32,802 nt of DNA from Avibacterium endocarditidis (lineage in GTDB: Bacteria; Pseudomonadota; Gammaproteobacteria; Enterobacterales; Pasteurellaceae): positions 1-32,802 of the forward strand of contig NZ_PQVI01000005.1 in the NCBI RefSeq assembly GCF_002921145.1, in the 5' to 3' direction. Under the pieces are notes generated by a model. That model had not been told where the DNA came from. It saw only the letters and a list, made by a program, of their open reading frames with translations, and ran no database searches. Below, in pieces: positions 9,755 to 10,079 of this stretch. Position 1 is the first letter of the stretch, and every line of letters starts with the position of its first letter. Both the position numbers and the translations under genes were made by a program.

Positions 9755-10079
9755 AATAGCAAAAATTCTGCAAAAAAGCACCGCACTTTGATTTTTAGAA
9801 AAATCCTTTTTGCAAAAAATGGAGTATCATTTCATATCAAAAAATGCTTAATGCGTTTAAAACCAAGTGATTTCAAGAAAAATGCGTTTAAAAGTTTTTC
9901 AACCTTTTTCAATTTTGTGATATAGCTCTCAGTAATGAAATATTACTTCATTTATTATATAGCCATTAGGACATTTCCTCCGTTATTTGGCGTTGTCGTA
10001 TCCCCAAAGAGAAATATGCCCTAACCATTTAGATTGAAATGTTCTGTTCACTCTGCAAATCAATGAAAGGAGAATTGCA
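9755..10079. other. siaP upstream region
   Basis: 325 bp without a gene. It contains an uptake signal (9780-9788), the CRP/operator/-10 cluster at 9916-9958, and the AAAGGAG ribosome site of siaP. The leader between the predicted start of transcription and the ATG is about 115 bases; no riboswitch-like fold was recognised. Confidence 0.6.
9916..9958 (+). promoter_or_regulatory. siaP promoter: CRP site, palindromic operator and -10
   Basis: TGTGATATAGCTCTCA (9916-9931) matches the CRP consensus at 9 of 10 positions. Next comes AATGAAATATTACTTCATT (9934-9952), the palindrome also found before siaT. TATTAT (9953-9958) follows directly. The predicted start near 9965 would place CRP at -41.5, exactly class II. 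The operator occupies the -35 region, so a repressor there would block polymerase. Binding by SiaR is inferred. Confidence 0.65.

Follow-up and report, generated by a model that had tools for sequence, protein, structure and literature searches.

How transcription of siaP is controlled in Avibacterium, a poultry-associated bacterium, is the question raised by the DNA analyzed here, a stretch of 32,802 nucleotides (the window) that is part of a draft genome (161 contigs) of an Avibacterium species. On its minus strand the window carries a nan operon composed of nanA, siaR, DUF386/YhcH, nanK and nanE, and on its plus strand siaT, siaP and nanM; a SiaR orthologue (RpiR HTH and SIS) is thus encoded within the Avibacterium nan cluster. 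A preliminary description of this DNA had placed a CRP site, a 19-bp palindrome and the hexamer TATTAT in close succession in front of siaP, with CRP at −41.5, a repressor on the −35 region and a second copy of the 17-base core of the palindrome before siaT. The whole arrangement is best explained, in our view with a probability of roughly 0.7 judged from the DNA sequences, as the SiaR-CRP module of the Pasteurellaceae in a compact class II form.

Elements of the siaP promoter in the window

As outlined in Table 1, the CRP-like site (9/10, reading TGTGA-N6-TCTCA), the near-palindrome and TATTAT were re-extracted in immediate succession at siaP, and the 17-base core was found again, without any exchange, upstream of siaT, in agreement with the preliminary description. 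The 19-bp site is present as described; it is not fully palindromic. The distance from the CRP centre to the first base of the −10 hexamer amounts to 29.5 bp and, with a start 7 nt past the −10, CRP would be located at −41.5, which reproduces the earlier figure. TATNAT stands at the matching place in 7/7 Avibacterium genomes, where the −10 position puts the centre of the CRP site some 41.5 bp before the predicted start. TATATA at 9956 was considered as an alternative −10 and rejected as weaker (4/6).

No −35-like hexamer is predicted at the siaP promoter (at most 2/6 at spacers of 15–19), and a simple sigma-70 scan did not include this promoter in its list. In E. coli, class II CRP-dependent promoters carry CRP at −41.5 without a −35 element, so that both the predicted CRP position and the missing −35 are as at Avibacterium siaP. 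The class II spacing and the missing −35 fit a CRP-dependent activation, and CRP should be required at siaP because the promoter has no −35. Different from the E. coli promoters, a predicted RpiR-type operator is interposed between the CRP site and the −10 and takes up the spacer. The predicted CRP site and the box are 19.5 bp apart from centre to centre, corresponding to 1.9 turns, and thus lie on nearly the same helical face. With regard to the proposed repressor on the −35 region, the box is indeed situated between CRP and the −10; what it covers is the spacer from −29 to −15 and not exactly the −35 hexamer.

Table 1 Positions of genes and sequence elements in the window (strand left empty where none applies).
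Feature	Position	Strand	Remarks
siaR, RpiR-family regulator (HTH_6 + SIS)	4548–5416	−	in two pieces in this assembly
nanE	6827–7516	−	first gene of the divergent nan operon
CRP-like site TGAGATCTAGATCATA	7612–7627		8/10; adjoins the 7631 box on the nan side
SiaR-like box TGAAATTTTACTCCA, nanE-siaT region	7631–7645	−	precedes the siaT box by 120 bp
Second exact copy of the 17-base core TGAAATATTACTTCATT, upstream of siaT	7751–7767	+	identical to 9936–9952
siaT (SiaQM/DctM)	7863–9708	+	frame broken near 8050 in this assembly, whole in G014 and G050
Terminator-like hairpin	9729–9748	+	3′ of siaT, ahead of the siaP promoter
Distal SiaR-like box TGAAATGATACTCCA at siaP	9820–9834	−	116 bp upstream of the main box
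Predicted CRP site TGTGATATAGCTCTCA	9916–9931	+	9/10 of TGTGA-N6-TCACA; centre 9923.5
19-bp near-palindrome AATGAAATATTACTTCATT	9934–9952		8/9 pairs complementary, central T
Predicted SiaR box core TGAAATATTACTTCA	9936–9950		−29 to −15 from the predicted start
−10 hexamer TATTAT	9953–9958	+	5/6 match
Predicted siaP transcription start	9965	+	from the −10 position; leader about 115 nt
siaP, TRAP sialic-acid binding protein	10080–11064	+	frame broken in this assembly (10436–10690), whole in relatives

The frame breaks in siaR, siaT and siaP are probably indels of the draft assembly; the siaR frame is open in the other six genomes of the genus. Two more genes (23042–23765 and 25385–26563), judged by eye to be argC and a gene for an RNA methyltransferase, appear split as well. 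Terminator-like hairpins number four in the region compared with 3.7 in shuffles, which makes the one at 9729–9748 weak evidence taken alone. The decamer ACCGCACTTT (9780–9789), similar to the core of the Haemophilus uptake signal, is found near this siaT terminator and is present in most other Avibacterium copies. Furthermore, Rfam family RF02903 (AaHKsRNA96, an Aggregatibacter sRNA of the type antisense) matches 10929–11045 on the minus strand with 60.9 bits, above gathering; the match runs antisense to the 3′ half of siaP and may merely reflect conserved siaP coding sequence. A tandem pair of tRNA-Asp (gtc) genes is located at 2682–2854, and a search of a plasmid collection returned no match.

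The gene order siaT-siaP-nanM is found in five Avibacterium genomes and in Bisgaardia, and siaP comes first in the remaining compared rows that show both siaP and siaT. In G014 (A. paragallinarum) and G050 siaP is separate from nan and siaT, and the box is kept at each place. In A. paragallinarum (L035, 6590–9610), siaP-nanM lies behind a ula-type (ascorbate) operon, named by eye, with nan and siaT elsewhere (L170).

The box and its CRP neighbour across Pasteurellaceae

Within the window the 19-mer, searched with up to three mismatches, gave three matches, distributed over two sites of which one matches on either strand, compared with 0.03 expected, a count that was reached by none of 100 shuffles. 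The whole draft genome yielded five matches at the same stringency, which equals the reversed-pattern control (5); at zero to two mismatches the 19-mer occurs only at the two window sites, and the other two places have three. A place with three mismatches before a sorbitol-type PTS gene (by eye; G000:C125:6454), with a CRP-like site nearby, was treated as background. Alignment of six diverged siaP promoters from Avibacterium and Bisgaardia left 39 of 45 columns invariant over 9916–9960, while the invariant columns amounted to 6/70 just upstream (9835–9904) and to 10/98 in the leader (9962–10059). The best non-overlapping stretch of 45 bases within 9760–10073 reached 14 invariant columns and spans the distal box.

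Searching the seven Avibacterium genomes for the 17-mer with up to two mismatches gave 22 hits, 14 of which are the siaP and siaT copies, two per genome in 7/7, with one mismatch at siaP of G050 and G099 and two at siaT of G050. The other eight carry two mismatches each and are fewer than the hits of the reversed-pattern control (14); the spread over unrelated genes that the preliminary description had named as contrary to its reading was thus not observed. Three of these eight stray hits were rejected as operators because of their location within coding frames; one such frame is, by eye, a UDP-GlcNAc 2-epimerase-like gene. Sequence comparison shows the sites themselves and their genus-wide restriction to sia promoters. 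SiaR, the predicted RpiR-family regulator of the adjoining nan cluster, is the most likely protein to use the palindrome as its operator.

The combined arrangement was followed with the pattern TGTGAN6TCNCAN4TGAAATN4CTYCA, composed after the sites were seen and applied with up to two mismatches. Among 121 Pasteurellaceae genomes it was found in 72, with 90 hits in total, in comparison with 2 hits for the reversed pattern. Taking as siaP genomes the 62 with strong-group SiaP orthologues, 56 have the module upstream of siaP at a distance of no more than 400 bp, and a SiaR match is present in all 62. Six siaP genomes are without the module at this stringency, two of them being an Actinobacillus pair (G040 and G065, i.e. 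rows L045 and L044) with a 5-bp gap. A SiaR match at 1e-40 is missing from 9/121 genomes, one of which (G104) has a module hit; another module hit is found in G024, whose sole SiaR match is 31% identical.

The spacing was then scored with a free gap of −3 to 24 bp. From 80 collected loci the gap scan covered 50 (L035–L083, L095) plus 4 genus loci, the scans for −10 and mirror boxes 52 rows (L080 and L081 dropped) and the distal-box scan 53 rows; row counts are not independent events because some rows are near-copies. A pair of CRP site and box was detected in 51/54 siaP regions, with scores of 17–20 of 21, and among 1,080 shuffles five reach 17 and one reaches 18. The regions without a pair are L048, just below the threshold, L080 and L081. 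The gap between CRP site and box is 4 bp in 49 of the 51 scored pairs and 5 bp in two, so that the comparison shows a fixed spacing as well.

A+T-rich dyads are common, and the palindrome might accordingly belong to another regulator or be a mere promoter-flanking dyad of this kind. We hold this for very improbable: the palindrome is limited to sia promoters in the genus, keeps a fixed spacing to the CRP site and is accompanied by a SiaR match in 62/62 siaP genomes. Moreover, a mirror copy is found inside the SiaR footprint placed on H. influenzae (see below), and the Avibacterium box resembles the site TCTGAAAGTACTTTTAGA of S. pneumoniae NanR, which has a TGAAA half (PMC12713135, here and below in excerpt).

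Away from siaP the module was hit 28 times, and seven of these hits were placed, one of them at siaT of Bisgaardia. In four genomes the module is bordered by the nan cluster on one side and, on the other, by a divergent gene that is not siaP. It adjoins nanE in G007, G045 and G035 and, in G023, a hydrolase-like frame preceding nanE; the divergent genes are, by eye, hydrolase-like (G007, G045) or porin-like (G035, G023). In G062 the module lies ahead of a porin-like gene (by eye), and G069 resembles G045 by position only. The porin-like genes of G035, G023 and G062 (L181 3583, L182 3099, L183 2169) may be further SiaR targets, and the same may hold for the hydrolase-like gene with an upstream module (L179, L180; by eye).

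Promoter position in Avibacterium and Haemophilus influenzae

The closest known system is the nanE-siaP region of H. influenzae (Johnston 2010, PMC2946308, cited throughout from an excerpt), which shares with Avibacterium the regulator pair, the 4-bp gap and the controlled genes. There, the footprint of SiaR comprises 53 bp and shares 3 bp with the CRP operator; the siaP start was mapped 107 nt from the start codon (PMC2946308). SiaR and CRP bind jointly, GlcN-6P being the co-activator, and a 5-bp insertion uncouples them; SiaR is described as repressor and GlcN-6P-dependent activator that remains bound (PMC2946308). Placed via its primer on L065, which represents another strain, the insertion falls between TGAAGTGTTTTTTCATAAA and TGTGATCAACTTCTC, and a footprint of 53 bp ending 3 bp into the CRP operator would span L065 9761–9813. 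Primer and footprint placement thus indicate a SiaR operator on the nan side of CRP. As this differs from the side that matches the Avibacterium box, it counts against the explanation favoured here.

The footprint so placed holds a box in mirror orientation, TGAAAAAACACTTCA (10/11), again with a 4-bp gap to CRP. The sia-side box of H. influenzae is degenerate (8/11) and located outside this footprint, at −57 to −43. A mirror box scoring 8–10 of 11 at a gap of 4 on the nan side was observed in 22/52 rows, and at least 8/11 at a fixed position is reached by about 0.3% of shuffles. By title, 21 of these rows belong to Haemophilus, Aggregatibacter or Rodentibacter, the name of the remaining one (L066) being doubtful; the Rodentibacter rows L051 and L056 are without a mirror box. 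It was also found in Lonepinella (L055) and, at a gap of 14, in three Actinobacillus rows. Mirror box and sia-side box together mean that CRP is flanked by two SiaR-like boxes in the Haemophilus, Aggregatibacter and most Rodentibacter rows. This mirror-symmetric double-box layout (L065 9795–9848 and 21 further rows) is not mentioned in the excerpt of PMC2946308. A nan-side half-box in Avibacterium L036, L117 and L120 (8/11, other orientation, gap 4) stays within the shuffled range and was discarded. The doubtful record L066, titled Pseudomonas stutzeri NCTC11607, bears a Pasteurellaceae-type nan-sia cluster, and its title is probably wrong.

The position of the −10 separates the rows further. 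A −10-like hexamer (5–6 of 6 to TATAAT) was located 29.5 bp from the CRP centre in 10/52 rows, namely the seven Avibacterium genomes, Bisgaardia and two Gallibacterium, at 56.5–58.5 bp in 32/52 and at neither position in the remaining 10/52, all of these being raw counts for a short motif (TATNAT) in A+T-rich DNA. H. influenzae belongs to the second set with 57.5 bp, agreeing with its mapped start. In H. influenzae and the 31 other rows of this set the hexamer thus lies about 28 bp further on, which would place CRP near −69.5, i.e. in a class I position; the shift of the −10 between Avibacterium and H. influenzae is supported by the comparison. Chelonobacter (L039), whose box differs by one base, was not assigned to the compact form, as no 5/6 hexamer was found. 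Gallibacterium L054 and L057 carry a perfect TATAAT at the compact place and L053, L057 and L058 a hexamer at 47.5 bp; because both hexamer positions occur, the promoter type was left uncalled for this genus. In a SiaP tree of 39 rows Avibacterium, Bisgaardia and Chelonobacter fall together (94/91, just below the mark for firm support), with Gallibacterium apart from the Avibacterium group.

In H. influenzae CRP acts as a class I activator of siaPT from a centre at −69.5 and SiaR from the nan side, with a single operator set for the two divergent operons nan and siaPT (PMC2946308). Avibacterium differs in that CRP is predicted at −41.5 and the box falls within the core promoter; siaP is found by itself behind siaT with a predicted promoter of its own, and a separate box is present at siaT; class I spacing and a single divergent operator set were not encountered in the genus.

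The fixed 4-bp gap (49/51) points to a CRP-SiaR contact under selection that is kept in both promoter types. SiaR could accordingly be mainly a partner of CRP, serving as a CRP anti-activator without inducer and as co-activator with GlcN-6P, a role compatible with the other readings and also in line with the joint binding and its uncoupling by the 5-bp insertion in H. influenzae (PMC2946308). However, the box of the compact promoter covers −29 to −15, the polymerase's own place, in contrast to the H. influenzae sia-side box at −57 to −43, and we regard a mainly CRP-directed role as doubtful. The anti-activation by CytR and CRP at deoP2, where a LacI-family regulator works with two CRP sites, offers a parallel. 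A repressor adjoining CRP could likewise make CRP a co-repressor; CytR belongs to the LacI family, whereas SiaR is an RpiR protein.

The RpiR proteins named NanR in S. pneumoniae (PMC12713135) and C. perfringens (PMC4509764, in excerpt) also control sialic acid genes via a near-palindromic site, as predicted here. Unlike for SiaR, the excerpts of both papers describe no CRP partner. S. pneumoniae NanR, furthermore, is an activator sensing ManNAc-6P (PMC12713135).

Second boxes, proposed mechanism and meaning

The siaT box is conserved in genus alignments, and no CRP site was found beside it in Avibacterium. TAAAAT after this box (7767–7772) was rejected as the siaT −10, since it is not conserved in the genus. 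A second box lies 119–121 bp upstream of the siaT box in Avibacterium, with a CRP-like site next to that second box, and such pairs were detected in 5/5 Avibacterium nanE-siaT regions scanned. At siaT of Bisgaardia the compact module is complete, and TATAAT is located at 29.5 bp. As the full module is thus present at both genes there, an origin of the siaT box by duplication of the siaP promoter was considered.

Paired operator-like boxes are therefore predicted at both genes. At siaP the distal box shows 11/15 invariant columns over the six promoters and scores 10–11 of 11 in 8/8 Avibacterium rows (seven genomes, two rows being one contig), whereas shuffled sequence reaches 10 in 1.6%. It precedes the main box by 119–121 bp in the remaining Avibacterium genomes; the spacing of 116 bp in the window accompanies shorter homopolymer runs in the alignment and is perhaps an effect of the draft assembly. 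Main and distal boxes (116–121 bp apart at siaP, 119–121 bp at siaT) could be bridged by a SiaR tetramer in a repression loop, for which both the distal-box scores and the recurrence of pairs at siaT speak. S. pneumoniae NanR, also of the RpiR family, forms dimers and ligand-stabilised tetramers (PMC12713135), by analogy compatible with such bridging. Since 119–121 bp does not correspond to an integral number of turns of 10.5 bp and the distal box of Bisgaardia passes no threshold, we consider a loop unlikely.

Returning to the compact class II module, we infer for Avibacterium both the binding events and the start site, as well as occlusion and inducer, as follows. CRP-cAMP would bind at −41.5 and activate as at class II promoters, and SiaR would occupy the palindrome downstream of CRP and ahead of the −10, turned to nearly the same side of the helix; by analogy to H. 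influenzae, SiaR and CRP probably sit together at the compact promoter. As SiaR at −29 to −15 would be incompatible with RNA polymerase, SiaR without inducer would occlude the promoter. Catabolism of sialic acid would raise the level of a phosphorylated amino sugar, GlcN-6P according to one study of H. influenzae, upon which SiaR would change its state and let CRP recruit the polymerase. The siaT gene, upstream of siaP, would be controlled from a separate SiaR box that has no CRP site beside it. Findings on the inducing signal conflict, as GlcN-6P co-activation (PMC2946308) stands against lower transcription with sialic acid, which turned these genes down and not up in H. influenzae (PMC2836998, in excerpt). 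In H. influenzae SiaR lies beyond CRP, with the sia-side box at −57 to −43, and can thus remain bound during transcription; given this dual-role regulator that stays bound, plain occlusion could be an oversimplification.

Control of sialic acid genes by SiaR and CRP is of a known kind, of which the compact class II form, with siaT and siaP apart from each other, represents a variant. This variant was not encountered in the literature searched, partly as best-ranked matches. The search returned no paper joining Avibacterium with siaP; among papers on Avibacterium, sialic acid and operon none is titled on sia regulation, and among those on SiaR and Pasteurellaceae none is titled on the regulator. 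A DNase I footprint of H. influenzae SiaR was reportedly presented by Johnston 2007. A published box consensus or the mention of a second box was not found; either may be contained in that work, which is represented here through the excerpt of PMC2946308. A term search of the excerpted PMC5343134 gave neither SiaR nor NanR.

For the family, we tentatively propose that the CRP-SiaR geometry was kept across Pasteurellaceae and the promoter moved by about 28 bp, converting an upstream site compatible with co-activation, as in H. influenzae, into an occluding class II site, as in Avibacterium and Bisgaardia. At the same time siaT and siaP would have exchanged places and come under separate control, and each would have gained a distal second operator in Avibacterium. 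Such a shift should turn SiaR from a factor beside the polymerase into one that excludes it. With protein sites and spacing fixed and a promoter that moves, the locus would represent a testable natural experiment on the evolution of regulatory logic. The predicted SiaR box and CRP-SiaR module should help to predict sialic acid regulons in much of the Pasteurellaceae. For Avibacterium itself the prediction is that siaP, encoding the binding protein, would be CRP-controlled and that siaT, encoding the membrane part, would be without an adjacent CRP site. The comparison of the compact with the distant promoter suggests how one control module can be rewired.
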